Below, piece by piece: positions 5,652-50,225 of a DNA stretch of 64,000 nucleotides. Numbering within the stretch: the stretch's first letter is position 1; each line of letters starts with the position of its first letter. The notes under the pieces are model-generated. The model did not search any database, was not told the origin of the DNA, and saw only the letters and a list, made by a program, of their open reading frames with translations. The position numbers were made by a program, and so were the translations under genes. The DNA lies in NCBI GenBank assembly GCA_016800925.1, contig JABCPU010000040.1, positions 62,001-126,000 on the forward strand, in the 5' to 3' direction. This stretch comes from Suillus spraguei (lineage: Eukaryota > Basidiomycota > Agaricomycetes > Boletales > Suillaceae).

Positions 5652-6560
5652 TGGGTGTAGCACACCATAAACTATCTTCGTTCTAGTGTCTAGTTCCACT
5701 ATTTTTTTAATCTCGTTCTAATATGTTTTTACTATACATCAATAACATCCATTGACCTCTCGGACTTTAACTTGTCTGTCAAATTTGTGCAGTTGGTTCC
5801 TGAGGAGTACGCTGGACGCTGGCATCCAGACTTTGAACTGACTTTTGGCCAAGATTCTTGATTTCCAAGACTGCTAGACAACCCATTTACACGTTCAACC
5901 AGTTTGTAGCCAGGTGGTTGCTCCAACAGACTGAAAATCTGTGTCCCTTGGACTGAGCAGGTTCGAAACCTGTCAACGACGTATTTTTTTTTGTCAGAAC
6001 ACACCCTTGACACTCGTTCATGGATTTATGGATTCATCTTAACCAGTCTTAGCGGGCTGCTCACCACAACAGAATCAAAGTCCGTCGAACCTGCCGAGGG
6101 CACCTTGAAGAATCACTCATAGAAGTCCCTCGGAAATTCATCTTCAGTGGTCTTAGCAAAGTGGTTACAGAGTCCAAATCTGTTTCCCCTAGATTGACGA
6201 CGAGGCTTTTTTCTATCGGAACGCACCTTGCCATTCACTCATGAATGGCTTCTCAAGGGGTTCATCGTAACTCAGGTGGTTGCTGCAACGGAATCAAAAT
6301 CTGTTTATCTTGGACTGTGCAAGTTGGAAACCTGACCGATTACAAAGTTTCTTTTTTTTTATCCGAACATGCCTTGACATTCACTCATGGATGGTTTCCT
6401 TAGAAGTTTATATTAACCTGTCTTAACCTGGCGGTTGCCACAACGGACTCAAAATCTGCTGCTCTTAGACTATGCAGGTTCGAAACTTGCCAACAAGGTT
6501 TTTTTTATTGGAATACACCTTGACATCTGCTCATGGGTGGCTTCTTAGATGTTCACCGTA

Positions 6561-6660
6561 ACTGGTGGTGGCCAGGTGGTTGCCGCAACAGAATCAAAAT
6601 CTGTTTCTCTTGAGCTGTGCAGGTTCGAAACCTGCCGATCACAAGGTTTGTTTTTCTATC
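6561..6660 (+). ncRNA. Representative tRNA-like unit (loop triplet CAA)
   Basis: One of the cleanest units of array 1. The A-box-like segment is GGCCAGGTGGTTGCC. The anticodon stem ACAGA/TCTGT pairs fully around loop ATCAAAA (triplet at 6595-6597, T33 present). The T arm GCAGG/CCTGC closes loop TTCGAAA. It ends in GTTTGTTTTT, an interrupted T-run. A transcript from such a unit would be about 90 nt. Whether it is transcribed cannot be judged from sequence. Confidence 0.5.
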
Positions 6661-7779
6661 GGAATATTCCTTGATATTCAGTCATGGATGATTTCCTCAG
6701 AAGTGCATCTCGACTGGTATCAGCCAGGCGACAGAATCAAAATCTGTTCCTCTTGGACTGAGCAACTGAGCATGTGCGAAATCTGGCGATCACAATGTTT
6801 GCTTTTCCTATCAGGACACGCCTTAACATTCACTCATGGATGTTTTCCTCAGTATTTTATCTTAACTGCTCTAAGATGACCTGGCGGTTGCCACAACAGA
6901 ATGAAAATCTGTTGCTCTTAGACTCCGCAGGTTCGAAACCTGCCGATAAAAAAGTTTTTTTCTATTGCAGTACACCTTGATATTCACTCATGGATGGTTT
7001 CCCGTAGGTTCGAAACTTGCCGACAGTGAGTTTTTTTTATTTTAAAAAAAATCAATTTTATTGTTCTTCGGGGTTGAAGACCCTATGTAGGACATAGCCC
7101 TGTTCGCGGGGGGCTGACAACGAGGTTTTTTCTACCGGAACACACCTTGACATTCACTCATAGATGGTTTCCTTAGAGATTCATCTTAACTGATCTCAGC
7201 CAAGTGGTTACTACAACGGAATCGAAATCTGTTTCTTAGACTGGGTAGGCTCGAAACCTGCTGCTCGCAAGCTTTTTATGGACACACATTGAGATTCACT
7301 CATGGATAGCTTCCTTAGACGTTGACCATATCCCGTCACAACCTAGTGGTTGCCACCACAGAATCGAAATCTGTTTCTATCGCACTATACAGGTTCGAAA
7401 CCTGCCGACAATGAGGTCTTTTTCTATCGAAATACACCTTGACATTCAGTCTTAAATGGTTTCCTCAGAAGTGCATTTGAACCGGTCTTAGCGAAGTGGT
7501 TACAGAATCAAAATCTGTTTCCCCTGGAATGCGCAGATTGGAAACCTGCTCACAACGAGGTTTTTTTCTATTGGAATACACCTTGACATTCATTCATGGA
7601 TGATGTCTTTTGAAGGTCACCATAACTGGTCCTAGCCAGTTGGTTCCCATAACAGAATTAAAATCTGTTTCTCTTGGACTGCGCGGGTTCGAAATCTGCC
7701 GATCACAAAGTTTATTTTTCTTCTATGACACGTCTTGACATTCACTCATCGATGGTTTCCTTCGAGGTTTATCTTAACC

Positions 7780-7880
7780 GGTCTCGACCTGGTGGTTACC
7801 ACAACAGAATCTAAATCTGTTTCTCTTGGATCGTGCAGGCAGGTTCGAAACCTGCCGACAGCGAGGTTTTTTCTATTGGC
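7780..7880 (+). ncRNA. tRNA-like unit with loop triplet CTA
   Basis: This unit keeps the anticodon stem ACAGA/TCTGT around loop ATCTAAA, so its nominal anticodon (7811-7813) is CTA, complementary to UAG. The T arm is perfect (GCAGG TTCGAAA CCTGC) with a 4-5-base duplication just before it (GCAGGCAGG). A TTTTTT run follows. The acceptor stem is poor as in the other units, so decoding activity is doubtful. Confidence 0.45.
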
Positions 7881-8445
7881 AATACACCGTAACATTCACT
7901 CATAGACACGTTCGCAACTTGCATGACATGATCTTTTTTCTGTTGGAACACGCCCTGACATTCATTCATGCTATGGAGGTTCATGTGACACCCGAATCCG
8001 CTCTAACTACAGATGGTGAAGATCTACCTACTGGTTATTAATCTGTTTCTCTTGGCCTGTGCGGGTTCAAAACCTGCCGACGAGTATCGCCTTGAAGATT
8101 CTTCATGGATGGTTTCCTTGGAGAGCCATCTTAGCGAGCTGCTTAACAGAGTCGAAATCTGTTTCTCTTGGGCTGCGCAGGTTCGAAACCCGCTGACGAC
8201 AAGGTTTTTTTTCTATCGGAACACACCTTGACCCTCGCTCATGAATGGTTTCGTAGAAGTTCATCTTAACTGGTCTTAGTCAGGTGGTTGCCACAACAGA
8301 ATCAAAACCTGTTTCTCTCGAACTGTGCAGGTTCGAAACCTGACGACAACGAGGTTTTTTTCCATCGGAACACACCTTGACATTCACTCCTCGATGGTTT
8401 CCTTAGAGGCTCATCTCAACTGGCCTTAGCCGAATCTATGAAGTA

Positions 8446-9250
8446 CATTTTATTCACGTGCTTAACGTATGCCCAAATTCTCGAGAGTAGACTGAATTAT
8501 ACATGGATGCTTTTTTGAAGAATGAGAGATAAACTACTTACCCGTTCGTTCAACCTTGGCACCTTCCTATAAATTCAACTTCTTTTCAACATAGGGTCCG
8601 CTCCTTTCCAGCCTAGTCAGAATTAAGTGAAGTATTCTCCTTGGAATGCCCACGACGTTTTGCACTTCGGGGCGTTAATGGACATCGTACATACCACATC
8701 GTCATCCATTTCAGCCCGGTCGTGGCAAGACCATCAACAAGATATATTCTGTATGAACTAGTATGTGCCAGTGGCTTTGTTCACTGTCGTGTTCTGACCG
8801 TTATATCAATACGTCAATTGATCAGGTTTCCTTACACAAACCACCTATCCACGAAGATCGAACGTAAGAGTCAAGTAGAATTGCGCTCCCAAACAGACCT
8901 TCCCCTTCGCTGCCAGCTGTATGCTAAACTGGGCCAAGATACACCTACGGCGGTACTGTGGTACAATAGGCCGCAGCACACGAAGAACAATGCCTTGTTG
9001 ATCCACACTGCATCTAAAGAGCCATCTATCGCTGTTCATCGCGTGAAATGACAATGGTCAGCAGAAAGGAGTAGATACGGGTAATTCTGGAGGAACATGC
9101 CAACGAATTAACTTTGTTCATTCTCGCCAAGGGCAGGAGCGAATTCAATCTGGACTGGACGCCCACATGAGATAAGAAAGAGCTATTAAGCGTTGGGAAG
9201 CATGGAATGAGCACGGAGCACCAGGCAAGCAGAAATAAGAGACGCAGTTA
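8446..9250. other. Duplicated WD40 3' flank and unassigned DNA
   Basis: About 8440-8640 resembles 2231-2400 downstream of WD40 copy 1 (shared TTCTCGAG..., TGGATGC..., GAAGAA... and CAGCCYAGTCRGAATTA blocks in the same order). About 8690-8830 resembles 11936-12080 (shared ATTCTGTATGA and GTTCTGACCGTTAT-like wording). A 136-codon ORF at 8641-9051 has no recognisable domain and probably is not a gene. Confidence 0.5.
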
Positions 9251-9261
9251 GCGACTATTGC

Positions 9262-9560
9262 TTACCCGAAGACCCTGATACTCTTCGTTGCGCTATCAGC
9301 TGCAACAACCCCGGAGGCTTTGATATGTGACCGCCGCCTGAGGTATTCAACGGCCCTTCTCGTTCTTTGGTAGAGTTTGCTAGTGCCACGAGTAATGCTT
9401 GCCAGACAAGCCAAGGTGAGAAAAAAGATGGAATAAACCAACGTCTCGGGTCGTCATAGCGGTCGCCTGTAGCATTCGGACGAACGTAGAAGTGAGCATT
9501 TGTCTCGAATAATGTCAGGATTGAAAAACGCTTGATGTACTTCTATGGATAAGAGTTGAT
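9262..9560 (-). CDS. Unrecognised coding-like exon with a membrane segment
   Basis: Reading leftward from about 9430, one frame gives LVYSIFFLTLACLASI (a likely membrane helix) followed by a basic stretch with TRRAVEYLRRR and KASGVVAADSATKSIRVFG, ending at a GTAAGC donor near 9263. Upstream on the same strand another frame reads KYIKRFSILTLFETNAHFYV after a possible acceptor near 9543. The two frames do not join without an intron or indel. I do not recognise the family; it may be part of a broken gene. Confidence 0.3.
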
Positions 9561-9599
9561 GTGGCATCATGATGACAATATATAGGCTTACCTACTTTC

Positions 9600-10339
9600 T
9601 GGCAACGGCCTCTGCAAGGTAATGATAACCCGCAATTTGTATACACTTGGACCGACTTCAAGCAACAGCTTAGTTCGTGAGTCTACAAAATGCATCCACT
9701 CACCATTAATGCGGGGTATACTACCAATCTTCTATATCGTACACAGAGAAGCGTGTTCTTGGAGAAGGAAGGCTCCGTACTATGAAGAAGAGCAGAGACG
9801 GCTCAGTTCAAGCGCCCAAGGTTCAAATAGAGGCAGAAGACACGTGGCGTACTGGCGGGCTACATACGGCGATTCATCAACGAGCTGCGAACAACGTAAG
9901 GATAACGCAATAAACCGTTGGTGCAACTCTCTTGACTCCAAAAAAACGTTGGACCACTATCTCAGCCACCAACCTGTGCCTCTCGTTCTTATGTAGAGCG
10001 AATCTGTGTCTTGTTGCTCTAAGTGAGGCTCACTGTGAGCAACATGCTGAGCGGAAAAGGAACTTTGTCGCTTACTGGGCGGTGTCAAGAATCTTCGTGG
10101 AAACGCAAGTTTTCAAGGACCAGCAGTAAAGCAAATTCGTCCGGCATACATCGTCCCCAAGCATCTTGATAGTTTTCGTAAGTAATACCACATGTACATC
10201 TATTGACACGCGTTCAGTTGAAAACAAATAGGTCCGTAAATACGCACTACCACAAGACAACCCATTCTGATCCAAAGACCAAGCGAGCTATTCTCGCGCA
10301 TATATTCATCTCCTTGATTAAAATTCCCGAGCGCCAGCC
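9600..10339. other. Intergenic DNA before WD40 pseudogene
   Basis: No recognisable gene. The last 250 bases resemble the 5' flank of the WD40 gene at 3902 (AAGACAACYCATTC, AGTTGAA...AGATAGGYCCGTAAAT). They are therefore a duplicated promoter region. Confidence 0.4.
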
Positions 10340-11715
10340 ATGTATTCTGTCACTGCTAAGACGAAAAAGACATCAGTAGTAGCGCCCCGCAAGACGATGC
10401 GAGGCCATATCGGACGAGTAGAAGGCATTGCGCACCTGCCGTCATCACATGTTCGACAGACGGCTCACTTTGAATATGGGACCTAGACAGCGGTATGCGG
10501 ATAGGTGATGAGTGGCGAGATGAAGGGGATGATGCAGTCGTGAAAACCATGACATTGTCTCCGAATGGTAAGATTGTTGCCAGTGGAAGTCAGGAAGGAA
10601 CAGTAAGATTGTGGGACGTTGAGACGGGAAAGGTTATCGCCAAATGGAAAGGGCGCGCTGAATCGGTAAACTCAGTATGCTGGAGTGCAGATGGTGAGTG
10701 GATTCTTTGATGGGACGGCAAGAGTGTGGAATGTGAAGAATGGCGAACCCGTCGAAGATCTGAATATAATCAAGACGGGACACGAACACATGCTCGCTGT
10801 GAGCTACTCACCAAAGGCAACAATATTAATGATCGCGACAGGAGGGTACATGGAATTCGATGGAATTGACTCTTCAAAATCAAAATTAAATTCAATCTGT
10901 TGGAGCGTAACACGGTTCGGGAATGGATATTCGACACCGCCACATGGCAGCTGTTGAACAGATTTCTCTGGAATCTTGACACACACCTCCAACACGAAGA
11001 TCACGTCGCACGTGCAGCCTTTTTCACTGATGGAAAGCTGCTATCCACAGATTGTCATGATGAAAACGCGTACGTATGAGACGTTCACACCATCCTCAAA
11101 GCGGCTGGCCTAGACGACCTTCTGTCTACACCTGATGTGAGTACTAACTTGACTCCCACTGCCATTTCATTTCAAATGGCTGTTAGACTCAAAAATCCGA
11201 ACTCAAAAAGGTGTGCCGTGCATCATCTTGTAACTTTTTAAGAATGAAGCACGCTAATGTTAATGTTCCACTCGCACAAGTCGTTATCAGGTGTACGTTG
11301 TGTCTCCTGTTATCCATCATGACATCGACATTCCAGGCTAATGCTACGCGACGTCCAGCCATCCTTCCAGCCCCACGTCAAGTGCCATCAGGCCTTTTTG
11401 GCAACGTCCATGTTCCTGTATGTTACCACAATTCACTTGCAATAGCCGTTCTGATTTCTAAATTTTAGTCCTTCACTACCCCCGTCGTGCTTCCCCCCTC
11501 TCGTTGCAGTCCTGCTGTTATTGAAGTTCCTGCACTAGATGACAAGAAGGTATGTTCCTTTTGGGGCTTGTACTGAGTGGATGGTGTCTCAAGCTGTTTC
11601 TGCAGGCGCTATATAAGCTAGCGACATTGCGAAACGCATCAAGGACCGTGAATGGTGGGCTCGTGTTGTACTGTTCATCTACTGTGCATCTCCGTCCACC
11701 GACGATAGTCATTGA
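10340..11715 (+). pseudogene. WD40-repeat pseudogene (copy 3)
   Basis: Homologous to the genes at 403 and 3902 along most of its length, including the tail exons to a TGA at 11713-11715. Several lesions are visible. A deletion removes the segment after GCGCACCTGCC near 10440. A CGA arginine codon has become TGA in the first blade (SL*IWDL, near 10470). Bases are missing near 10690, shifting the frame. About one WD repeat is lost near 10940-10960. TGG has become TGA in the last blade (YV*D, near 11078). The low-complexity and tail exons remain readable (GDKKALYKL... to VLFIYCAS) but are shortened. I see no way to make a full propeller. Confidence 0.8.
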
Positions 11716-12998
11716 CGGTGTTATAATATGTACATCACATTCACATTGATGTCCTCGTATTATCTAATAGTGTTTTCTGCTATTGTGGATAGCAACTTTT
11801 GATGCCTCGCAAGTTCTAATTCGTCTGAAGGGATAAGTCGATTCCCATATCAGTTGGTCAGAACGGTCACTAGCCTGGACGAGATCGGCGTGACGTGAAC
11901 TTACAGATCAACCAAGTACATTTCATGCATGTACTCTGGGCATTGTGCGTACAACATCTCTCCACCACTCCGTTCTAGCCGTTCTCACGAAATCATCGTA
12001 AGAAAGATTCTGTATGACAATATATGCCCGTGGCATTGTTCGCTCCCGCATTCTGACCGTTATGTATATGCGTCAATTTCCGCTCATATGTTGTGCCTTG
12101 TATTTCCCTGTTCATGCCTCCTTTCGCAGTCGTCCAGAAACACTCGACCTGCACCCCATATGGCCACTCGACCATTCACTAGTTTGATCCCCCATAATCC
12201 TGTTTGTTTCATTTCCTGTACCGTATTTGGCTGACTCGTCTTGAGCAGGACGTCGATCGAGCGACTGTGAGTGAAACTGAGAATCTCGGCGAGCAAGATC
12301 ATGTCCAAGCCTTCCTTGCTGGTATAAAACATAGAAAAGACTTCAATGAGCACTACCGCCACAAATGCGCTGTGTGAACTCTTCCTCAGGAAGGGTAGCT
12401 ACGACCGAGTATGCGATTTTCTTCCACGCACTTCACGACACGACATTAGGTTTTGAAGCTTGCGGGGCGTACTTATCAGTTTTCTGATACCCTTGCGTCG
12501 CTAAAAGAGGGCTTTCTCAATGAAGCTGCCACGACGACCGCAGACGGCCAACCAAAACACCTATTTGGCGCAATCGGGATGCAAATCCAGAACGGTAAGC
12601 TGACTCAAACAGAGAAGTGAGAAAGGTAACTTATCTCAGTTTCAGATGAGATAGCTGCAGCGATCCACACCTATGATCTTCTTCTGCAGCCTCCGAATCC
12701 TCAGTTGAAGCAACGGTTATACTCACTTTCCTGTCCAGGTGCTCCGAGTTCAGATTTTGCTTAAGAAAGGGCTAAAGCTCGGGAGCTATTCGACCGTGCT
12801 ATCAAAGCTCTCGAGCAAGACAACTCTCGTATATCCAATGATCAAGTCCCACCATACACAATCAAAAATTGAGGTTCATAGACAGCAGACTGAGGGACAG
12901 GAGAAACCGAGAGAAAACAACTACGTAAGTGTCCGTGGTGTGTACCGAGAAGGAATAACTATGTACTAGGTGCCCATGGTTTGTATTCCTGACGTTCG
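11716..12998. other. Unassigned DNA with a short coding-like fragment
   Basis: About 11936-12080 is similar to 8690-8830. Around 12247-12378 one plus frame reads EQDHVQAFLAGIKHRKDFNE before a stop. About 12640-12725 (DEIAAAIHTYDLLLQPPNPQ) also looks coding-like, preceded by a possible acceptor. I do not recognise the family; these may be remains of one interrupted gene. Confidence 0.35.
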
Positions 12999-14482
12999 CT
13001 AATCCGCGTTGCATTGACACGTTTGCGATTCATGCAACAACAAAGACTGTGTCTCCTTCCCGTCATCCAGGTCCAGTAGTGTCTTAATGCGTCCATATGT
13101 AGTTGGTTTAGCTCCTTTTGGATGGTGGCAAGCCGCTAATGTGAAGATAATGGCGACGACGAAGAGACTGGACGCTAAATAAAATATCTGTGTATCCAAT
13201 CAGAATAGGTGGACAGTGCTGACTAAAGGCAAGCTCATTTCACCACTGAATGAAATAACGCCGGGGCTGGTGGAGGCGACGTATATCTCAACGGCGAGAC
13301 CAAATAACCAATCTGCTGGCGATATGGGTAAGTCAAGGTACATGGTACATCACAGAGGACATACGAAGGAATGGCTTGGCACAGAACAGCACGATGTGCA
13401 GCCAGTTGCATAGAAACAATGCATAAAACCAAGAACTGAAAGAAGAGTTGACACTACTGTTCGATCCTTGTTTTCCTCTTCTCCATATTGTCTCGTCTCT
13501 TACTACATCTGCAACAAGCTCTGCGCAGTGGAGCCCAAGTGTGACGCTACCTTGAGTAATTATCATGAGTGTATACATCGAGAGCCATGTTCCAAATGAA
13601 ATTCCCCTTCCTTGGCCTTCACCGGCAACGGCGACTGCCCCGACATTATCAAAGCCCGGGACGATCGCCCATGAACGACTCGGACCTTCTGGGGAAGAAG
13701 ATAGACCCAGAGGCCCCAGAACATACATGCGATGCCTAATCCCCATAAAAGATAAATTGCCACTCTCACCCCTTTGCGCGTATTCCATGCAGACGGCAGG
13801 GGTTGTATGGATTTCGTTGCATCTGGAGGCGTGCCAACACATGTGCAGGGGTCTGTAAAGAAATGATATTCCTTCAAACATTGAGGATGATGGATACGGC
13901 GAAGCGCTGGTATAGTATCGAAAGGGGAAGTGTTCCAGGTCGGGATATCTATTCCCCGCAGTGCAAAGAGTGAGATGCATGTTTGGAGAAAAATGGAGAT
14001 GCCAGGACGATAGCCGGAACTGCCAATATCCCACATAACTCGTCCAGACCTAAGTCTCGATAGATGAAAGAGCTGGACGAGTAGGAAATGATAAGCAAGA
14101 ACGTCATTAGCCCATTGATGAGGGCAGAGTTCATAGGCTTTGTGTCAGATCCGGTGAGGAGACGCAGATTCGAGTTGTATCTGGCACGACGTTCTTGAAA
14201 TAGTGCGAATCGCAATGTCCTGGAGTGCACTATCCCAGCACACTCCGTGCATGCGGTTACAATCAGATTCAATGCTAGGCTGGGTACTTCATGGGACACC
14301 CCGCACATGAAGTACAGCAGACCATAAAAGTCGCTCCCATTCGATATCATCAATATAGAAAAACCACCAGCGAAAAAAAACAAGGCTAGCAAGAATGGAG
14401 AAAACGGACCCAAAAATTACGAGCCTCCGAATGGATGAGCCCTTGTCAAAGGATCATCCCTGGAGGTATCGTCGTCAGACAT
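12999..14482 (-). pseudogene. Multipass membrane protein of an agaricomycete hypothetical family, damaged
   Basis: Read leftward from the ATG at 14482 (MSDDDTSRDDPLTRAHPFGG). Hydrophobic blocks follow: FLLALFFFAGGFSILMIS, then ALINGLMTFLLIISYSSSSF, then ILAVPAIVLASPFF. Downstream are VAIYLLWGLGIACMFWGLWV, then LGLHCAELVADVVRDETIWR near 13500, WLFGLAVEIYVAS near 13300 and a final FYLASSLFVVAIIFTLAAC with KPTTYGRIKTLLDL near the end. The GLHCAEL and P-TYGR-TL patterns recall a multipass family of unknown function common in agaricomycetes (from memory). There is an in-frame TAA right after HPFGGS, and the reading frame changes near 13950 and 13600; some changes may be introns, but the TAA is not easily spliced out. 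Probably a pseudogene. Confidence 0.6.
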
Positions 14483-15780: not shown

Positions 15781-15812
15781 ATTCGACTAAAATAAATTGT
15801 GGACGTGAACCA

Positions 15813-15822
15813 GGTATATAAA
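15813..15822 (+). promoter_or_regulatory. TATA-type promoter without an obvious downstream ORF
   Basis: GGTATATAAAGCG is followed within 40-90 bases by a pyrimidine-rich stretch (CCCTTCATCTCTTACTTTTACC), the usual layout of a fungal core promoter. No long ORF follows; instead two inverted repeats lie at 15987-16041 and 16054-16100. A non-coding transcript or a lost gene are both possible. Confidence 0.35.
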
Positions 15823-15986
15823 GCGCAAGCATCCCCTCTGCATCGTTATCACCCTTCATCTCTTACTTTTACCTCGGTCAACTTAGACTAGTAACCTGGT
15901 CCTCAACGAGAACGGACTGAATCTCTGAGGTACATCCTGTGCTGTGCTGGATATTATACAGGACGTTCAGAAGTTAGAACTCCTAT

Positions 15987-16100
15987 CATCGTCTGCCAAA
16001 CGAGCCGAACGGGATTCATTCAGTTCGTCTCGCAGACGATGCTCCTCTCAAAGCCAGGTGGATACTCAGCAATGAGCTTCTTTGCCGAGTATCCACCTGG
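15987..16100 (+). repeat. Two consecutive hairpins
   Basis: Hairpin one pairs CATCGTCTGC (15987-15996) with GCAGACGATG (16032-16041), with partial pairing further in. Hairpin two pairs CCAGGTGGATACTC (16054-16067) with GAGTATCCACCTGG (16087-16100), a perfect 14-bp stem with a 19-base loop. Both lie about 170-290 bases downstream of the TATA box. Confidence 0.6.
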
Positions 16101-17500: not shown

Positions 17501-17509
17501 ATTTTTGTT

Positions 17510-18580: not shown

Positions 18581-18775
18581 ACTATGTCAGCTATTGGCCA
18601 TGCCGCGCAGCTATCCATTACGCCTGTCAAAGATGTGGAAGTTCCAATGTGCTTGGATCGGCATCAACCTGTGTGGCTGCCGCGTGTGTGAGATGCTAGA
18701 TAAAATTAAAGTTGGATAAATTGCTGACGGATTTCTGTCGCCAGAATATTTTTCAGTACAATATGACCAAATCTA

Positions 18776-37489: not shown

Positions 37490-37945
37490 GTCCAGAGTTC
37501 AAGTTACTGAGAGGTTACGACAACAGAATTGAAATCTGTTTCTGTTCGACTGTGCAGGTTCGAAACCTGCTGACAGTTTTTTTTTATTGGAAGACACCAC
37601 CTCGGAGGGCCGCGCCGCCATCTTAGTATTAGTAGCTGGTCTTACTAGTGGGCTCCTTACCATAACAGAATCAAAATCTGTTGAACCTGGCGTCTTTTCT
37701 ACCATCACCCTGACATTCCCTCATGGATGGTTTCAGCCTCCAACAGAATCAAAGTTCGTCGAACCTGCTAATGATAAGGTTTATTCTATTGGTTTCATCA
37801 AAAGCACGTCCTAATTGGTCTTAGCCAGCTGCTAACTGACAGAACAGAGTCGAAATCTGTTTGTATTAAGCGGTGCAGGTTCGAAACCTGCCAACCACAA
37901 GGTTTTTTTTCTTACACACCTTGACATTCACTTTAGGGTACGGTT
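37490..37945 (+). repeat. Tandem array 2 of tRNA-like units
   Basis: Four units of the same family as the arrays at 5885-8445 and 47850-50225. Loop triplets: TGA at 37530, CAA at 37672, CAA at 37750 and CGA at 37851. Units 1 and 4 keep a perfect T arm (GCAGGTTCGAAACCTGC) and end in eight T residues. Units 2 and 3 belong to the short type, in which the anticodon arm runs straight into GAACCTGC with the variable arm and half the T arm deleted. Confidence 0.8.
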
Positions 37946-38970: not shown

Positions 38971-41900
38971 CAGCTTTCAAATCCTGAGACTGTTGTCAGA
39001 TCATCTGCGAACTCTAAGGGCCGTCCTGTCCACGCTTTAATGCAAAGACTCATAATAAAGACCACCACCATGTCTGAAGATGGCAAACCAAAATTTTCGT
39101 GGAAGTGTATTTCGTGTGACCATTCATGAAAAGGGTCACCACAGGAGAGTTGTGTCCTGAAGCATTCTGCAATCTGCAAGAAGCTTCCTGTACACCTTCA
39201 GAGTCAAGCTATCACTGCTTCAAAGGATGGGTCACTTGGGGTACAAATTCTTGAAGACTACAAGACTGTGCCTGACAATGAGGGCCATTTGGACGAGCCA
39301 CTAGCAAAATGGCCCAAGAATCAGGTGACCCTGAATGTTGCACCATATCATGATGCAGGGCAAAAGAAGTGAGATGAGGAACGCCAGCTTTTCCAGAAGA
39401 AGGCTGATCACATCATCTTGTGTCTCATTTGTGTATGTGGTTTGGTTCCAACGGTCATTGATTCCGATGAGTGGAAGGAATTAATGGTGCATTTGAACCC
39501 ATATTATTCCCCCACATCCTGTAATACATTCACTGATAATTATATACCAAAGGAGGCTGTCTTTGTTCGCCAATGGCAGCTCAAGGAGTTGAAGAAGCAC
39601 AACAACCTGACACTTACCTTTGATGGCACAAGCACACAGAAACCACAGTCCCTCTATACTGTACATGCAACCACCCCAGATCAGATAACACATTTCTTGG
39701 ATGGTCACGAGGACTCTACTGTCAGTCATACTGCTGTGTGGGTGAAAGATAAAATGCTTGAGGCCAGTATTTTCACACATATATGTCATCACTTGAACTA
39801 ATGCTCCAGTTTTCAACAGACTATCTATGATGTCGGAGAGGACAAATGGGCTGCTATCTGCTCAGATAGCACTGCGGTCACCAAAAATGCTCAATGTGAT
39901 GTTGTCAACACCATTCCAACAATCTTAGACTTATGTGATACCTGTCATCATTTGCATAATACCATCAAGAATGTTACCCAATTACCAGAGTTTGAACAGG
40001 TGCATGAAAACCTCGAGTTACTTGAAATTTATCAAGATCCGTGAATTATCTAGATGTTATCACTACTGAAACCTATCATCAAACATTTTAGTAAATCAAC
40101 GATCTCTGCTGCACACCTCTGGAAGGAGCAATAGGTTGATGATAATGATGAGACTGTGAATGCTCTTCAAAAGATTGGCAAAATAAGGTTTGGAACCCAC
40201 TGGTCAGCTGCAGTGTCACTTGAACAGTGCCTCCTGAATATACAAAATCTTGTAGAGAAGAAGATTGTGAAATTCACGGTAAGTACTTTTCAATGTAACC
40301 TCATGTGGGACTGATTTGATAGAGTTTAGAACCATAAAGTGAAGGACATGTTCCTGAACCACCATGCATTCCGGACTATGGAACAGGATTTGTGTTACAA
40401 CTGGGGTGGCATCACCAGCGACAGTGAGAAGACACAGACAGTCTGCTGGGAAGTTCTTACAATGTCCAAAAGAGGACAAGGTGAAAGTACAAGGAATGTT
40501 ACAATCGTACGTGCTCCTATTCATTTTCCCTTTGTTTCTTTACTTGTATGACGCGTCACATGACTTTGCCTTATATGCTCAATGCATCTGTACAACACAT
40601 GCCTTCCTTATTAGGATACGCAGTTATATTCTCACGGTTACTTGGTCTGTGCGCACATAATGGCCTATTTAAGCACAGTGTACTTGTAGTAAATTCCTTA
40701 CTTTAATCTTACTGGGTTTTACCTGGAATCTCCTTTGCTTAGGCCTCCAACCTAAGTCGTCTTGAATCGTCTCTAAGTCTAAGCACTCCTTAGCCTTAGT
40801 CTCTATTCTTGCAGAACCTCTTGGACTTGTCCTTGAGGCCAGACCCTTGATCGTACTCGGAACGAGTTCCTTGTACTTTCACCTTGTCTACTTCTAGACA
40901 TTGTAAGAACCTCCTAGCAGACTGTCTGTGTCGTTTCACTGTCGCTGGTGATGCCACCCCAGTTCGTAACAAGGAACGCGTTCCGAGTATGATCAAGGGT
41001 TTGGCCTCAAAGACAAGTCTAAGAGGTTCTACAAGAATAGAGACTAAGACTAAGGAGTGCTTAGACTTAGAGACGATTCAAGACGACTTAGGTTGGAGAC
41101 CTAAGCAAAGGATGTTCCAGGTAAAACCCAGTAAGATTAAAGTAAAGTATCTACTACAAGTACACTGTGCTTATATAGGTATGTATGTGCACACAGACCA
41201 GGTAACCGTGGGAATATAAGTGCGTATCCTAATGAGGAAGGCATATATTGTACAAGCGTGTTGAAATGCATGAGTAAGAGATGAAAGCACATGTTTAGCG
41301 TTCGCGTATGCTAAACTGGCTGAGTCTGAGAATAGAGTCATGGGGATTCATGACATCACATGATATGACGTGTTGACGACGTATGGTTGAATCATATAGT
41401 CATGTGATGTCTGATGGAAGTGGAAGTGTCTGAGCAATAAGCTCCATATCACGTGATATACAAGAATGGAAAGGAAAATGAATAGGGGCACGTACAACTG
41501 TAACAATTTGGGTATTTATGTCACACTTGTGGGACCATTTGTCCACTCGCTGTGGTCCCTGGAGGCATCCCACATGAATGCATCTGATGTCTTCATTTTT
41601 TGGCTGGTGATTGCTGCAACATTGGAAGAATTATTTGCAATAGGTGAGGAGCAGACAGGGATACCAGTTTCCCTTGCACAACGCATTACTGCCATCTTCA
41701 ACAGCTGGTGGAAGGAATTTTTCAGTTACAATGTCTATTTTGTTGCTTTCGCACTTGATCCATGTGCTCACTGATGGAATTTCATAGGCTATCCTCTCTC
41801 CAACAACATCATGAAATTTGCATTAGCAGCCCCAACCATCTGGATACCAGCACAGGTCTCAACATCTGCAAACCCTGCTGAATATCCAATGCCTCATCTG

Positions 41901-42180
41901 TGTGCTTACCTATGTGTGAAAGAGTTTCTCAAGCCCATGCTGCATGCAATGGTGGAGTGCAGTGAAGCTCAGTCTGATCTTGAAGATCCAATCTCGCTGC
42001 TTGTGCAGGAGATTGGTGCAGCTAGTGTCATTGATGAGTTCAGACGTCAACTCGAGGCCTATTTTTACAACAAGTGGCTGTTCAATGCCCCCCTTCAAGA
42101 TGGAAACACTCTTGCATGGTGGAACATGCTTTTACCTCATCCTCATGCTAGTGTTCTTGCTGTAAGTCTGTACTTCTGTT
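38971..42180 (+). mobile_element. Decayed hAT-like transposase with BED-type finger, interrupted by a fold-back insertion
   Basis: Plus-strand coding remains read in order. There is a BED-like finger (KFSWKCISCDHS, then CVLKHSAICKK, about 39080-39185). A segment with LICVCGLVPTVIDSDEW and LTLTFDGTSTQKPQSLYTVH (39418-39801) follows, then WAAICSDSTAVTKNA and CDTCHHLHNTIKNVTQLPEF (about 39850-40000). After the insertion come SLWSLEASHMNASDVFIFWL (about 41540) and LAWWNMLLPHPHASVLA at the C-terminus (about 42110-42160). The CxxH-type motif and the LAWW/HPHAS end fit hAT transposases. Stops at about 39118, 39370, 40043 and 41772 and the inserted DNA show it is dead. Confidence 0.7.
40390..41280. 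repeat. Fold-back insertion with arms of about 290 bases
   Basis: Bases about 40575-40870 and about 40980-41275 are reverse complements with some mismatches. Examples are AAGCACAGTGTACTTGTAGT near 40670 against CTACTACAAGTACACTGTGC near 41153, and CTAAGTCTAAGCACTCCTTA against TAAGGAGTGCTTAGACTTAG. The loop (about 40870-40970) is an inverted copy of 40398-40500, built on CTGGGGTGGCATCACCAGCG and ACACAGACAGTCTGCTGGGA. A further direct copy of that block lies at 42188-42260. Confidence 0.7.
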
Positions 42181-42306
42181 ATGAACTGGGGTGGCGTCAC
42201 CAGCGACAGTGAAAAGACACAGACAGTCTGCTGGGAAAAGTACAAGGAACTAGTTCCAAGTATGATCAAGGGTTACATAGTTCAGAAATCAATACATTCA
42301 GCGAGT

Positions 42307-42838
42307 ACAACATCAAAATGGTATGCTATTTGATATTCCAGAATTTGTCCAATGTAGCCTGCTTCACATTCTGCAACTCCTCACGCCGTAGTGCTGCTTG
42401 AAATGCATGAAGTTTGTGAACAAGATCAAGTGAAGAATCAGCACCAACTCATGCAATACATGCCGCCTCAAGCTTTTCGCACAGCAGAATCAGTTCAATA
42501 GCACAGACCTTGGGTAGATCATCCTCATCCTCATCATCTGATTCCACTTCAACCAGCTCCCCACTCCTAATTGCTTGCCAGTGCTGAATTTCTGCAACAA
42601 TTGCATTGTCATCTTCATAAGCAGTTACTTCCCCAACATTCTTCTCTTCTTGAGGATCAAGAATCTCATCAACAGTCAGTGGTGCACCAATGATCTGTCT
42701 CTGTGTTGTAAGCTCCTCTATAGACTTCATCAATTCATGTTCAAGAGTATCAAGCCGAGGTGCCTTGGGGAGAGGCAGAATTTTGACAACAAGCCCAGTT
42801 CTTTGACATGCAGCTGATGCATTTCTGCTTGTATGGGG
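42307..42838 (-). pseudogene. C-terminal part of a CENP-B/pogo (Tigger-like) DDE transposase
   Basis: Read leftward: KILPLPKAPRLDTLEHELMK, then APLTVDEILDPQEEKNVGEV, an acidic stretch VEVESDDEDEDDLPKV, then AIELILLCEKLEAACIA, a stop, and SLDLVHKLHAFQAALRREEL to a final LDKFWNIK and stop at about 42306. The acidic C-terminus followed by a short helical tail matches fungal CENP-B/Tigger-type transposases; the DDE core is absent. A hAT element (42839-44077) cuts the left side of the reading. Confidence 0.55.
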
Positions 42839-44077
42839 TAGTGATGCAGAAGTCCAGTTCAGAACTTCAGTTCGAACCTGAACCTTCTGAACCAGACCGT
42901 TGGTCCGGTCCGACGTTCGACATGCTCTCAGGACCAAATGTGTCATTACATTCAGCATTCGGCTGATGCCTGAAAGTTCCAAACCCGTCCAAACCCATCC
43001 AAATGTGTTCGAACCGTTCCTACATCTGTATATGATCCACTCGATGTCCTCAGGCTTATTACTATCCATCTATCCTAATATTTTCTCTGATTGTCTGGCA
43101 ACAAATTCAATATGGCCATTGTCAGTCCTGGGAACATTGAATGACCAAGAACAGCTCTTTAGGACCAAAACACTCAATGCATGTCTATTAGCGATGTCTG
43201 ACTTCGTCAGTAATCTACTCAATGTTTTGGTAAGCTCACTGTCCATCATTATTCGGATTACAATCTAATTTATGTCCAGAACCTATCTTCGGGATGCTCA
43301 TTCAGGTACTTAATTACATGGCAATGATATGTTCAAGGTGCGTCACATTTTGCTAATCTCTTACCACAAATTTTGGTATAAATGATCTACTACAGGTACA
43401 ATATTCACTCCTCTGGCTGTGAGAATGGCGTGCGCACTTGGATCTGATGGCAAACTCAAAGACGCAAGCGCCATTGATTGGTACAATGACCCGGATGATG
43501 ACACCCCTTTTCCTGCTCCACCTCCACCTCCAGCATCTGCTTTTGTGTCTCATCGCTCAGGTCGAGCTCTCAAACCGACAGAGAAAATCTGCGAAGCTGC
43601 CAACACAGCTCCAGCGCCTCCTCCCAATACTCCAGTGCCTCCTCCCAATAATGCCACCTTAGATGAAGTTGAAGTCGATGGAGTAACTACAGTGGTATCA
43701 TGGACCACAGTCGACGCAATCGACTCACACCCGATGTCTTCGAGGCCTTACAATTGTTGAAAAGTACTTATCGAAACGGGCATGTTCAGGCTGCAGCAGA
43801 CGCAGCGGCTCATGTGGAACCTCTAGCCACTGTGACTGCTGATGATCTTGATCTTAGTACTACAGATGCATAGTCTCCATGTAATATATACAATTGACCT
43901 AGCCCTAACCTCATGCTCGACGTCCGAACGCGAACCAGACGTGAACCGGACGTCCTGAACGCGTTCGAGGATGTCCGGTCCAACGTTCAGCTCAGCAGCT
44001 GAACCGAACGTGCAGTCACGTTCGGTGTTCGCAAAAGTTTCTCTTGAACCGCACTAAACCGGACTTCCGCATCACTA
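42839..44077. mobile_element. Complete non-autonomous hAT element with 8-bp target site duplication
   Basis: The left end TAGTGATGCAGAAGTCCAGT and right end (reverse complement TAGTGATGCGGAAGTCCGGT) are terminal inverted repeats of about 20-25 bases. Both ends are flanked by GTATGGGG (42831-42838 and 44078-44085), an 8-bp duplication as expected for hAT. Subterminal DNA is rich in GTTCGAAC/GGTCCGG-type short repeats. Inside are short plus-strand coding remains, for example GSDGKLKDASAIDWYNDPDD (43438-43500) and a Pro-rich segment, but no transposase core. Size 1,239 bp. Confidence 0.8.
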
Positions 44078-44085
44078 GTATGGGG

Positions 44086-44762
44086 CAAGAGAATAACTAT
44101 AAATTAGTCATCTTACACTGTTGTTATGCATTAACCTCCGGCGACTCAGCAGTAGTCCTACTCGTCACAGACTATATCTCATAATGTATATCGGACCTTC
44201 AAAGGCTATACATTATACATTATACAATTTTTTTTTTCTGGGCATCTACCCGCATACCACGACGGGAACTGCCAAAAGTCGATACAATATGAGATTTATA
44301 CACTATTAACGTATACATTATGAGCAAGTTGACTGTACTTGTTCATCCTTCAAATTAATGAGGATGATGGTCTGAGCAATTTGGTCATCTTTCTCCCACT
44401 GTTTCTTCTCGTTAGGATCTGTGGGCCTTTCACAGGTCCCATCTATATGACCATGGACTTCGTGGACTCGGAGGACTGTTTCGATCTTCTCCTTCACATC
44501 ATCCAGTTGTCATCTTTAAGCTCTCCCATTTTAGGATGAGACTGATCCTAAGTTCGTATATGGGGAAGTCTGGGAAGACTGAGATGTCTGGACATTAGGA
44601 TTGGCATTTGGGTCAGTCATTTTGATTATAGATATGTATTTATTTGCGTAGCGTAAATTGGTTGTCTTTTCTTTTGAGGTTCGTTATGCGATTTACACGG
44701 ATAGGGTGTTTAGAGCAGTCTAATTATTTCGGCGGTTATATATACTTGAACTACCCGCCACA
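44086..44762. other. Intergenic AT-rich DNA
   Basis: No gene recognised. Short palindromic repeats of TATACATTAT occur at about 44200-44330. Confidence 0.4.
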
Positions 44763-45086
44763 TTACTTAAGCTCCGACTTTCCGCTAGTCTTTAGCTGAC
44801 GTGTCCTCAGGAGGCTCGTGTACCTCAACACACACATATACGGTGCTTTCTGTCTACCACGCCGGTGAGTTAACAGATCCTGGATGAAACTACTCATACT
44901 CACCTCTGTGCCATTACTGTCATCTATTATGGCCAACTCTGGCACGCATTGAAAGCCAGAGCAGCACTGATCTTCACCCATCGTGCAAAAATCGCCAGGC
45001 GCGGTGCATTGACTGTCAGCACTGACAATCATAGACACTGTCAAAGCAGCAATAACAGCGAGGACGACTCGGAAGGAGGGACGCAT
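44763..45086 (-). CDS. Small secreted knottin-like cysteine-rich protein
   Basis: Starts MRPSFRVVLAVIAALTVS with a clear signal peptide ending near SADS. The mature part has CTAPGDFCTMGEDQCCSGFQ followed by C, i.e. C-x6-C-x6-CC-x4-C, and one more Cys (YMC) encoded after an intron. This is the six-cysteine inhibitor-knot (knottin) spacing. An intron of about 54 bases (GTGAGT...GACAG, about 44854-44907) joins NGTE to KAPYMCV. The ORF then runs to a stop at 44763; the residues after YMCV may be a different frame or a non-conserved tail. In agaricomycetes such proteins are candidate effectors or defence peptides; the role here is unknown. A TATA box lies about 40 bases upstream. Confidence 0.7.
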   Translation of the reverse strand: MRPSFRVVLAVIAALTVSMIVSADSQCTAPGDFCTMGEDQCCSGFQCVPELAIIDDSNGTEVSMSSFIQDLLTHRRGRQKAPYMCVLRYTSLLRTRQLKTSGKSELK

Positions 45087-45124
45087 TATTTGTGTTCTTG
45101 GAAATAAATCGGTAGGAAGGTGTT

Positions 45125-45132
45125 TTTTTATA
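45125..45132 (-). promoter_or_regulatory. TATA box of the knottin-like gene
   Basis: The minus strand reads GGTATAAAAAAAC, about 40 bases before the ATG at 45086. There is a short leader. Confidence 0.5.
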
Positions 45133-45559
45133 CCATTCTGGGCAGAACTTATAACAGACAGGCGACATTTGCCCTGCCAGCAGATAGCTGACGAAAATTT
45201 GTGAAGCCTTCGCATCGCGTAACAAACTACTAATGCGTTGTTCTATCAACTGCGCCGCACCAATGGGACGCAGAAACGCTGCTCGCTGTAGCTCATCTGA
45301 TCTCACGCATATTTTTTTAAAAAAATCGTTCATTGACCGGTGGGGCAGGGCCCTATGGTAGTCACATGTGTGACATACATTTTATTAAACTCCATTTCTA
45401 TGTACGAGAATCCCCCAACCAGCGGCCAATGGCTGCGTACCCCGGAAAAGGTTCATAGTGAGAAAGTACTCAGAAACTCATCTTTTTACGCATTTAAGGT
45501 TGTACATGCCACCCTACATTCATAACTTGCCATCAAATTTCTCCCGAGATGGTGGGTTA

Positions 45560-45660
45560 ACCCCTTCCATTCCAGTGACGCATATATATACGTAGGATGG
45601 TTACCACGCCGACGGTGAGCAATAAATCTTTGATAAAACCACTCGTACTAAAGCTTCTAC
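45560..45660 (-). pseudogene. Decayed duplicate of the knottin gene's intron and second exon
   Basis: Forward 45565-45650 resembles 44825-44905 (ACGCATATATATACG..., TACCACGCCGACGGTGAGC, then GATAAAACCACTCGTACT against GATGAAACTACTCATACT). Only the 3' half is present and the first exon is not seen, so this is a truncated tandem copy. Confidence 0.45.
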
Positions 45661-46724
45661 CTGAGACACGTTATTCGTGAGATATGATAGGAAATAAATT
45701 TGAATGGGTATGGTAGCAGGACGGCTTGCTTTTTGTCCTGAATACTATTCTAACCTTCAACAGGTGCTATTTGCAATTAATGCCAGCAGACCTCGAATTT
45801 GACTCGACTACTCCTAGTATTTTATGGTGAGACAGAAGATCAAGATCCCTGTAGGTAAGGAGGCCTGATCCTGGTCATCCAAGTGGGGATCGTTGTCTGG
45901 ACAATGGGCATCACATTCCCCCACCTATATTCAGGGATATTAGAAGAGCCATAGGACAGGTAATGCGTAATTACTGTATACGGACCACTTATAATAGACT
46001 CACTCTCAATCACGCCGTCCTCAACTTAGGCCTCCAAGCACCCGTATATATAGCCGTGATATTGATCGAAGCCACGACTTCGAGATCCTAGTAAGATCAG
46101 CAGTAATAGGTGTCATTTTACTCAAGATTTAATGTCGTATTAGCACCCGTCATGAATCCCTCTCCTACATGCTAATTTTCCAGACCTTTTGCTATTTACT
46201 GAACTGTTTCGTGCTTGGTGTATCCGCAGGAGTGCTTTAGTAATAGGGTGTCAACTAACAGTTCATCGTTATGCCCAGCCTTCTCATCGCCTTGCGAGTT
46301 CACTTCTCCCACTCCTTTAATGCACCTTCACGTCTAATACTTATACATCGGCAGTGACAGCCATTGCAAAGCTCAGTATCCGTAGGTTAACAACTGCACA
46401 CTCGCGGTAGAGTACATCTGCCTTGAGAAGTTCTTCTGGAGCATCTGTGCCTTGGCGGGCATTGCTCTTGAAAAGCGTTGAGAGAAAGGGACGTGCAGCA
46501 CAGGTTGCATGGCATATGTCGTGAATTATGGAGAGATAGTCGAAGGAGCATGTAGCTAAAGAATCGTTAGTATTTAGGCATTGAAATGAAGCGAAGAATA
46601 CTACAGAACAATGACGATCGCAGGCGAATGTGAATTGATTCCATCCACGAGCTGTATATAACAGCAGTGCGATGGCATCTGATCTAGAGAGTCCGGGACA
46701 CACGGATAATGATGGTCTCCAGGA
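45661..46724. other. Intergenic DNA
   Basis: A minus-strand ORF at 46341-46727 (129 codons) has no domain that I recognise and abuts the dispersed repeat. Otherwise nothing seen. Confidence 0.35.
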
Positions 46725-47540
46725 CATGAAGAAATTTACGGAAATGAGACGGCTGACAAGGAGGCAAAATTAGCAGTCATGAGTAGAACGAACAATAACG
46801 AACAAGAGAACCTACCCCGATATCTCAAACACGGCACACTCCCACTCAGCATCTCCGCTCTAAAGCGAGCACACTGCCAAGAGACCCATCTCAGATGGAA
46901 GAGACTGTGGGTCAAGTCCCCGAGATATGAACGTTTCCAAGGACTAGACCCAAACGTCATTAACCGATCCTTCACATACTCTGAGAGCGGGACGCAACAA
47001 GAGCGCCATCAGGGTTGGGTATTAAGCGAGCCAAAAGATGAGAATACGCACTAGTTGGGAGTGGAATGTGACCAGCGTATCATCAGGGTGAGTAAGTGAG
47101 CCAACAGGCGAGAAATGCACTGCCTAAGAGCGGGACACAGCCAAAGCATAATCAGGGTTGAGTAAGCAAGCTAACAGACGAGAAACGCACTGCCTGGGAG
47201 CGGGACGCGGTCAGAGCATCATCAGCGTCGGGTAAGCGAGCCAAAAGACAATAACAGCTTACTACAGGGCCTGGCATCGTCGCTGCGAAGGTCGAATGCG
47301 AAGGCAACTCTAGGTTGACGGCGAAGCTGCTCTCGTCTGATGTATGTTTGAGTGGAAGATGAACTTGGCGAAATATTTAAACAAACTCACCTTCAAATAA
47401 GCAGAGTGTATTCAGACGGTCGAGAACACCATATACATGGGCTGATTTGTGTTGGGCCCGTGACAGTATATATTTCACGAGTACATGAAGATCTGCCAGT
47501 GGAAAAGTCATCAGGAAATTGTTCGAAAATGATCTGTTTT
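46725..47540. repeat. Dispersed repeat, copy B, with internal tandem subrepeats
   Basis: Same orientation and order as 21960-22740, including the subrepeat block (about 46975-47255) with GAGAGCGGGACGC and AAGCGAGCCAAAAGA motifs, and the ending around GAAAAGTCATCAGGAAATTG. The two copies differ by scattered substitutions and small indels. Confidence 0.7.
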
Positions 47541-47679
47541 ATCGTCTGATCAATTTCTCGTTTCCGCAGTGAATGCAGGAGAAGTAGGAGAAGATGGTGA
47601 ACAGAAGGGCAAGCATGATACTTAAACAGAAAGCCTCACCAAAGGCTTCGACTTCGAAAATCGTAGTCAGCGACATGAT

Positions 47680-47842
47680 AGGTTCGAACCGGTCCGGATT
47701 TATCGATGACACACCGAACCTCAAACCTACCAAGGGGTTCGGTCCAAGAGAAATTCCGGACCTGTGACCGAACCATGGGTCCGGTCCGCAAAGGTTCGGG
47801 TTCGAACCTTGGTCCTTGGACCGGACTGCGGCAGCACTAGTC
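47680..47842. repeat. Terminal fragment related to the hAT element at 42839
   Basis: Rich in GGTTCGAACC and GGTCCGGT-type segments and ending GGACCGGACTGCGGCAGCAC then TAG, like the right end of the 42839-44077 element. Only one end is present. Array 3 begins just after it. Confidence 0.5.
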
Positions 47843-47849
47843 GGAACAC

Positions 47850-50225
47850 TAACTTGTGAGCGGTGGTTTCCTTATGAGGCTCATCTTAACTGGTGTTAGC
47901 CAGGTGGTGGCCACAATAGAATCAAAATCTGCTTCTCTTTGACTCTGCAGGCTCGAAACCTGTTGACTACAACGTTTTTTCTCTGAACACCCACTGGCAT
48001 TCACTCATGGATGGCTTCTTCAGAAGTTCACCATGACTGGCTTTAGCCCGGTGGTTGCCACAACAGAATCAAAATCTGTTTCTCTTGGATTGTGCAGGTT
48101 CGAAACCTGCTGATGACAAGGTTTTTTTCTATCGGGACTTACCTTAACATTCATTCATGGTTTCTTTCGTATCCAGTGTTAGCCAAGTGGTTGCCGCAAC
48201 AGAATCGAAATCTGTTTCCATTCGACTGTGCAGGTTCAAAACCTGTAACGGGGTGATTATTTTCTATCAGAAGATACCTTGAAGAAATCCACTCTTGGAT
48301 GGTTTCCTCGGAGAGCCATCTTGATTCTTGACTGGTCTTAGCGAGCCACTTACCACAACGTAATCAAAGCCTGCCGAACCTGCCGATGGCAAGGTTTTTT
48401 TGCCTATGGAAACACATCTTCAATGAAGCTTCCCTCATGGACAGTTCTTCAGAAATTCATCTTCATTGGTCTTAGCAAAGTGGTTGCAGAGTCAGAATCC
48501 GTTGCCCCTGAACTGCCCAGGTTCGAAACCTGACGACAAGGTTTTTTTTAATCAGAACACGCCTTGCCATTCACTCGTGGATGGTTTCCTCACAACTCCA
48601 TCTTAATTGATCTTAGCAAGGTGGTTGCCACAACAGAATTGAAATCTGTCTCTTATCTTGGGCTGTGCAGGTTCGAAACCTGCCGACGATGAGGTTTTTT
48701 CTATCGGAACACACATTGACATTCACTCATGCATAATCTCCTTCGAGGTCCACCTTAACTGGTCTTATCCAACTGGTTGCCACGACAGGATAAAAATATG
48801 TCTATCTTGGACTGTGCAGGTTCGAAACCTGCTGACAAGGTTTTTTCATCGAAACATACCTTGGACCAAGCCATATCACTCTGATGTGTGTAGTTTGCAT
48901 CGCTCCCGTTTTACTATGGTGGACGATAGGTTACGGTTCGATTTGCCGATATGCCGCAACTTGTTTTGAAGTCCGACCAATGTTTGTTTCGAACTTTATT
49001 GGTATGCACCTATTCACGCTATGGTCCTGTCACATGAATCACAAACCAGTTCTACGCCAGTCTGCAACGACTCTGCGCGCTGTGCTCACTGAGGTAGATC
49101 CGCAGCTGCCGGCGAGCATTACTATTAATATCACAACATTAGTGGCGAATGAATCTATCCTTCGGATTCCTTCCCTGAGCTCACTGAGCAGCCCTTACCC
49201 TCCGGGTATGCGACTCACTCAGGCTGCGCAGTGCTTCATTCCCGCTATGACAGTAGTCGGTGTTGTGTTTCTCACTGCGTATGTTGATCTTAATCGTCGA
49301 CTGTGCCTTTAGTTGTTATCAAGTCATTGGACCCTTCACTGATATTCCTACTGTTATTTATGTTAACGATGAGTCGAGATTTCTCCGTGCTATCGTCTTT
49401 TCTGCATGACTGCATTGTGCTGCGTTTTGTTTCCAATCATAATGGGGTCACCGTGGAGTTGACATTTGGTGCCTGGCTAGTGTGGGTACCACAACAGAAT
49501 CGAAATCTGTTTCTCTTGGATTACGCAGGTTCGAAACCTGCGGAACTACAGTTTTTCCCACAGAATGCACTTTGACATTCATTCATGAACGGTTTCTTCA
49601 GAAGTTCACCGCAACTGGTCTTAGTCAGGTGGTTGCCACAACAGAATCAAAATCTGTTTCTCTTGGACTGTGCAAGTTGGAAACCTGCTGACGACAAGGT
49701 TTTTTTCTATTGAAACACACCTTGACATTCACTCATGGATGGCTTCTTTAGAAGTTCATCGTAACTGGTCTTAGCTAGGCGGTTGCCACAACAGAATCCA
49801 AATCTGTTTATCTTAAACTGTGCGGGTTCAAAACCTGCCGATGACGAGGTTTTTTCTATCAGAACACACTTTGATGATCACTCGTGGACGGTTTCTTTCA
49901 AAGTTCACCGTAGCTGGTGGTCGCCTGGTGGTTGCCACGACAGAATCAAAATCTGTTTCTCTTCGACTGTGCAGGTTCGAAACCTGCGGACGACAAGGTT
50001 TTTTCTATCAGAACACACCTTGATATTCACCCGTGATGGTTTTTTTAGCAGTTCATTCTAACTAGTGTTAGCCTGATGGTTACCACAACAGAATCAAAAT
50101 CTGTTTCTCTTTCCTGTGTAGGTTCAAAACCTGCTGATGACAGCATTTTTTTTTATCGGAACACACCTTGACATCCACTCATGGATGATTTCCTTAGAGG
50201 TCCATCTTAACTGGTCTCAGCCCCT
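47850..50225 (+). repeat. Tandem array 3 of tRNA-like units
   Basis: Twelve units plus a truncated one at about 50210, period 148-150 bases where regular (B boxes near 49527, 49673, 49823, 49973, 50121). Loop triplets: CAA 47923, CAA 48070, CGA 48206, CAA 48365 (short type), CAG 48493, TGA 48640, unreadable near 48790, CGA 49501, CAA 49648, CCA 49798, CAA 49947 and CAA 50095. Most units have a T-run of 6-10 after the acceptor-like end. A 600-base block (about 48860-49465) without units interrupts the array; part of it is repeated in reverse at 50812-50885. Confidence 0.85.
48605..48700 (+). ncRNA. Representative tRNA-like unit with loop triplet TGA
   Basis: The segment TTAGCAAGGTGGTTGCC matches an A box. 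The anticodon stem ACAGA/TCTGT encloses ATTGAAA (triplet TGA at 48640-48642, a tRNA-Ser anticodon). The variable region is slightly longer than usual. The T arm GCAGGTTCGAAACCTGC is perfect and is followed by CGACGATGAGG and TTTTTT. The G after the acceptor-like strand equals the tRNA-Ser discriminator. Confidence 0.5.

Follow-up and report, generated by a model that had tools for sequence, protein, structure and literature searches.

A serine-tRNA-derived satellite of Suillus spraguei that probably spread as cargo of non-autonomous DNA transposons

How did tandem arrays of tRNA-like units come to lie at several places in one stretch of a fungal genome, and do they serve any purpose there? The question is raised by 64,000 nucleotides of Suillus spraguei DNA (NCBI GenBank assembly GCA_016800925.1, contig JABCPU010000040.1, positions 62,001 to 126,000 of the forward strand), which we call the window (source coordinates G000:C592:62001-126000; the assembly comprises 86.2 Mb in 1,256 contigs). 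We consider it likely that the arrays are a satellite that derives from a serine-tRNA gene and was spread as transposon cargo, probably without a host function. Dispersal as the cargo of non-autonomous terminal inverted repeat (TIR) transposons would account for the satellite at least in large part. The relevant features of the window, with arrays delimited by a profile hidden Markov model (HMM), are as follows.

5905..8420, plus strand: array 1, 19 HMM matches to old units, some of them partial
37511..37935, plus strand: array 2, 3 degenerate units
47891..48863, plus strand: array 3a, 7 units, left of the transposon and outside it
48909..48914, no strand: left copy of the target-site duplication TTTTAC (exact)
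48915..50881, plus strand: copy of a non-coding TIR transposon (the outer element), 1,967 bp, delimited by its TIRs and target duplication
48915..48986, plus strand: left TIR, 72 bp, with 93% identity to its right counterpart (self-comparison)
49482..50211, plus strand: array 3b, five tRNA-Ser-derived units within the transposon
50810..50881, minus strand: right TIR (self-comparison)
50882..50887, no strand: right copy of the target-site duplication TTTTAC (exact)

The HMM, built from five window units, gave 34 unit matches in the window, some of them partial and all on the plus strand (19, 3, 7 and 5 in arrays 1, 2, 3a and 3b, respectively), and Tandem Repeats Finder (TRF), which is independent of the HMM, gave array periods of 144–152 bp. 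These results confirm the plus-strand tandem tRNA-like units of about 150 bp reported in a preliminary description of this DNA, and the parts named there (an A-box-like segment, an anticodon arm, a long variable segment, a T arm with B box and a T-run) are all recognisable in the units. The T-arm motif GCAGGTTCGAAACCTGC, with up to three mismatches, occurred in 37 rows. Of these, 27 lie on the plus strand, and the 10 on the minus strand are plus-strand places picked up again through the palindrome. In 100 shuffles the mean was 0.15 and the maximum 1, compared with the 27 observed on the plus strand. Three arrays had been described originally, the third of which proved to be two things, one outside the transposon (47.9–48.9 kb) and one inside it (49.5–50.2 kb), separated by the left target duplication at 48,909–48,914. 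An extra partial unit of array 3a may begin near 47,838, as judged by eye.

Sequence comparison indicates that the unit descends from a serine-tRNA(AGA)-like gene. Class II-length tRNA candidates were obtained from 50 genome matches, which yielded 18 short stretches plus two in loci L016 and L018, and were read with ARAGORN. Among the 12 tRNAs of this genome with which the unit was compared, serine tRNAs took the top five ranks by z. The best of these, tRNA-Ser(AGA) of locus L032, was identical to the unit at 59 of 82 positions without a gap (z 11.9; 0 of 1000 shuffles as good), followed among others by Ser(CGA) at 7.8; the fifth serine tRNA, Ser(TGA), at z 4.2, was hardly above the better of the two leucine tRNAs compared (z 4.0 and 2.5). 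A leucine origin, which the earlier suggestion of a satellite derived from a class II tRNA-Ser/Leu had left open, was rejected on the far worse fit of those two leucine tRNAs; the class II ancestry and the serine alternative hold. The L032 gene is followed by TTTTTCTACC, which closely resembles TTTTTTCTATC, the T-run of the unit with the letters after it, and this resemblance suggests that the unit probably began as a gene together with its terminator.

The units no longer resemble working tRNA genes. No window unit reached the gathering cut-off of the Rfam tRNA model, the best permissive scores being 25.0 bits (47.8–50.4 kb) and 25.2 bits (5.8–8.5 kb) against a cut-off of 29; a cloverleaf scoring above that threshold, as expected of a tRNA gene, is thus not present in the units. 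In an alignment of 141 units (146 HMM matches minus five that covered 70 model positions or fewer; loci L001–L008 were left out of the analysis), the acceptor stem pairs in 351 of 642 cells and the D stem in 10 of 365. Both stems had been called poor; the D stem is in fact lost outright. ARAGORN nevertheless called three window units, as tRNA-Leu(CAA), tRNA-Ser(CGA) and tRNA-Leu(CAA), a warning that a tRNA finder labels such units although they are pseudogene-like. The CAA “leucine” anticodon is the outcome that would be expected from CpG decay of CGA; CGA is found in 5 of 37 units from free arrays and 13 of 104 transposon units, and CAA in 15 of 37 and 78 of 104, respectively.

What the preliminary description overlooked is the vehicle: array 3b is the cargo of a TIR transposon with 72-bp TIRs and a TTTTAC duplication. 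The 20 loci first fetched had the array and sequence on either side of it in common (best matches to the copy in L015, 89–96% identical), and the ends of this shared sequence are inverted repeats. With the L015 copy as reference for the outer element (L015:3184-6086, up to 2.9 kb), the window copy lacks reference positions 511–1517, the gap ending right at the array. A 33-mer of the TIR occurred at 107 genome places with up to three mismatches, and its reversed control at none. Among 15 end pairs drawn from 40 fetched element ends, the target duplication was exact over 6 bp in 12, carried one mismatch in two and was absent in one; because the flanks of three pairs duplicate those of others, the pairs represent 12 sites, of which 11 are exact and one has a single mismatch. 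TIRs, a target duplication of fixed length (6 bp) and the lack of a transposase in the four outer copies examined together characterise a non-autonomous TIR DNA transposon. The longest open frames in those four copies are 137–162 amino acids (aa) long, and that of the L015 copy matched nothing in Pfam at E up to 1. A coding element was considered and rejected, since the 162-aa frame, which runs across the inner boundary, occurs repeatedly, is often broken and has no Pfam match; the 150 scored of 885 genome candidates gave frames of at most 217 aa, many with stops. The element is therefore treated as non-coding. C-to-T changes in the outer copies are 4.1 times as frequent at CpG as at other C/G positions (485/5,401 vs 497/22,656), as would be expected of methylated repeats.

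Two individual copies deserve mention. On contig C433, the outer elements of L009 and L028, with ends near 66.5 and 83.1 kb, lie in inverted orientation, and their target duplications are exchanged, with ATATTC at one side and TGGTTG at the other (C1118 has ATATTC on both sides). This may reflect either recombination between copies that inverted 17 kb or an artefact of the assembly. L009 also carries a 1.4-kb insert between its fourth and fifth units (oriented 5444-6821), whose 132-aa open frame looks by eye like a transposase fragment and has no Pfam match.

All 20 outer copies first fetched contain five units, one of them interrupted in L009 and the last one partial in L019. Each outer copy fetched, later ones included, keeps five, although in L009, L019 and L097 they are in pieces. 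In a tree of the 141 units, those of the outer element group by array position and are nested among free-array units, with support of 1.0 for T1 (with one free unit), 0.985 for T3, 0.977 for T4, 0.985 for T5 and 0.756 for T2. Unit T3 of L028 falls with T5 (and was for this reason left out of the unit diversity profile), one free unit of L013 lies inside T1, and many deeper branches are poorly supported. By this phylogeny, the outer copies fetched inherited one five-unit block from a single ancestor.

Beyond the window, a unit of array 3a had at least 185 matches in its own genome, from 40 of 518 first-look candidates scored, and a T-arm 23-mer with up to three mismatches occurred at 1,237 genome places (reversed control, none). 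Twenty further arrays were hand-picked from 83 listed perfect matches to this 23-mer; three pairs are 96–99% alike over 2.4–3 kb, leaving 17 distinct arrays. All 20 have flanks of the outer element or of a second, “inner” element. The left arm of the outer element was found at eight of them (L090, L091 and L094–L099), and its right flank, at 95%, at L101. The other eleven have a core at 71–94% identity, which falls within reference positions of about 773–1505 left of the array and 1–90 right of it, with the exceptions that L093 has short pieces only and L102 no right piece. Since this core flanks other arrays, the outer element holds part of an older element that also bears an array, with which the tree of the units agrees. 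In four of the eleven, namely L103, L104, L087 and L092 (the last two near-identical), the core’s left end recurs inverted beyond the array, and when ten loci were compared with themselves the inverted ends were clear in L103 (570–658 with 2663–2578, 84%), weak in L087 and L092 and absent in seven; the inner element is itself probably a TIR element. A 31-mer of its end occurs at 390 genome places. Arrays at loci without the outer element contain 3 to 10 units.

The route that we propose would begin with tandem duplication of a serine-tRNA gene (with an AGA-type body and probably its terminator) into units of about 150 bp, which would have turned into a satellite as they lost the D stem and a good acceptor stem. 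Blocks of units would then have been caught in non-autonomous TIR DNA transposons, first in the older inner element; the 2.9-kb outer element would have arisen afterwards, taking in part of the inner one. Transposition with 6-bp target duplications, by a transposase presumably supplied by a separate autonomous element, would have scattered the arrays, and unequal exchange would have altered the unit numbers. Arrays 1, 2 and 3a would be older, and any vehicle that they may have had can no longer be recognised. Occasional transcription by RNA polymerase III (Pol III) may occur as a by-product, and carriage inside transposons probably explains how a tRNA-like satellite without a job of its own could spread.

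Several observations weigh against this account. No transposon flank was detectable at arrays 1, 2 and 3a on comparison with the fetched loci, so that transposition is not demonstrated for 29 of the 34 window units, and two other listed perfect 23-mer places lie in arrays 2 and 3a, again without element flanks. Hand-picking places with a perfect T-arm 23-mer favours young copies. Neither a transposase nor an autonomous partner was found, and a listing of 100 of the 107 TIR places contained no inward-facing TIR neighbours 4.4–14 kb apart. The inner element has clear inverted ends in only one of the ten loci compared with themselves, and no target duplication was recognised there. Finally, old units show stronger conservation in the anticodon and T arms than in the spacers, which plain decay would not produce.

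This conservation bears on the idea that the array does a job for the transposon, its units binding Pol III and transcription factor IIIC (TFIIIC) so as to keep the element open, insulate it or yield a useful transcript, an idea that we regard as unlikely. With CpG-affected columns excluded, variation in the 37 free-array units was 0.104 in the anticodon arm (p 0.0003) and 0.123 in the T arm (p 0.0006), compared with 0.270 in the spacer; the T-run, at 0.176, was weakly below the spacer (p 0.07), and the A box, at 0.228, was about as variable (p 0.21). The statement that the units had kept promoter and terminator is unsupported so far: the B box/T arm is more conserved than the spacer, the A box is not, and the T-run differs from it weakly. 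Among 150 sliding windows over the 27 free units of the window itself, again without CpG-affected columns, the anticodon arm ranked 2nd lowest and the T arm 9th; when gaps were scored as a further state, the T arm dropped to 19th, and in array 1 alone to 23rd or 53rd, while the anticodon arm stayed 2nd. The anticodon arm (unit alignment positions 26–42) is among the best conserved 17-base stretches of old units, above the A box. Its conservation is not what a promoter-only account predicts.

The conserved T arm of old units would suit a working part, as would the presence of arrays in both outer and inner elements, the five units kept by each outer copy fetched, and the frequency of the complete signal set (a loose A box with at most one mismatch, a B box that matches GWTCRANNC exactly and a T-run of five or more), found in 64 of 104 transposon units and 10 of 37 free units. 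Yet the number five was inherited from one ancestor, arrays outside the outer element vary in number as given above, and free units show no conservation of the A box. Moreover, in 27 of 29 outer copies (the near-identical L090 and L018 were dropped) and with CpG-affected columns excluded, neither the T arm (0.028, p 0.075) nor the anticodon arm (0.037, p 0.31) was clearly below the element backbone (0.045), and the array spacers change faster than that backbone. Purifying selection among recent transposon copies was accordingly rejected as not significant. Covariation as proof of an RNA structure was likewise discarded: in the free units, 146 of 155 cells pair in one conserved stem and 151 of 160 in the other, about as often as after dealing the letters anew, pair by pair, so that the stems have no covariation support. 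A more specific proposal, that a DNA transposon domesticated a tRNA-gene array, with TFIIIC/Pol III sites acting as an insulator or open-chromatin module against silencing and the conserved arms bound as DNA or RNA, strikes us as somewhat less likely again.

Independent host satellites with a chromatin role (a boundary or nucleosome-free region), of which transposons carry only stray pieces, would find their best case in array 1, which has the most units seen and no element flank. Its flanks are single copy, the exceptions being a 100% match on C1007 and some short partial ones at 73–78%. These flanks thus occur twice at 100% (G000:C592:67560-70835 and C1007:18781-22051), the C1007 copy probably being the other haplotype or a duplicated contig; other insertions too occur on two contigs, and together these observations suggest uncollapsed haplotypes in the assembly. 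Pieces of array 1 align to each other at 66–79% identity, and a block of about 5–6 units within the array is duplicated in diverged form (offset 920 bp, 73%). The array aligns with the transposon arrays over a similar length at 75%, and may be either the ancestral satellite or a transposon array stripped of its ends. The nesting of transposon units among free units in the tree would also suit host satellites. Against them stands the transposon sequence that flanks all 20 additional arrays (17 distinct loci), and we judge this explanation highly improbable. Least credible is that the units are a short interspersed element (SINE), that is, single retrotransposed tRNA-derived copies piled up in tandem by chance, which a tRNA-derived head, a B box, a T-run and dispersal would fit, but the 40 loci analysed around units all hold arrays of at least three units, with no dispersed single copies bearing their own target duplications, and the 6-bp duplications belong to the TIR element.

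For arrays 2 and 3a, whose flanks were compared with the fetched loci only, one comparison found other repeats nearby and a second only chance-level matches, neither revealing element flanks. The outer element lies about 45 bp from array 3a (window 48863-48915). Both flanks of one insertion (L073/L074, C1118) match a tRNA-like array, and 38 of 40 flanks match none, so that the closeness to array 3a may be due to chance.

Elsewhere in the window, TRF detected a 71-bp-period tandem repeat at 61787-62453 (9.4 copies, 92% matches) and a 70-bp tandem repeat at 47082-47249 (2.4 copies, 80% matches). Five of eight window frames scanned had Pfam matches (HSP70-like, two WD40-type, MIOS and R3H), in keeping with a eukaryotic genome. 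Viral contigs contained no exact match to the unit core and no relative of the HSP70-like protein of the window.

If the preferred reading, spread as transposon cargo, is correct, these loci trace a route from a tRNA gene to a dispersed satellite through tandem duplication, decay, capture by TIR elements and dispersal as a block. With many copies at different sites and known ends, they offer a natural experiment on tRNA-type internal promoters outside tRNA genes, which bears on whether such promoters remain active, recruit TFIIIC or serve as boundaries.

Among known systems, the Dada and IS3EU DNA transposons make target duplications of about 6 bp. The outer element resembles them in its duplications, in the one insertion within a tRNA-like array and in the position of the window copy near array 3a, but differs in that no transposase was found for it; as 38 of 40 flanks match no array, a comparable targeting of tRNA-like DNA is not demonstrated. 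The units share tRNA ancestry, B box and T-run with tRNA-derived SINEs, and differ from them in forming arrays at the analysed loci rather than single copies and in being moved by a TIR element with 6-bp duplications. OAX and satellite I of Xenopus are Pol III-transcribed, tRNA-like satellites of amphibians; like them, the present satellite is a tandem repeat with tRNA-type internal promoter signals, whereas it is carried by TIR transposons, has a decaying A box and is at most a candidate for Pol III transcription. Tetris and DINE-1 of Drosophila are transposons with internal tandem repeats that seed satellites, and by analogy with these insect elements the process proposed here would be of a known kind: a non-autonomous element with a central tandem array of units of about 150 bp spreads that array. 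The Suillus case is set apart from them by the tRNA-Ser gene from which its unit comes, its two nested vehicles and its fungal host.

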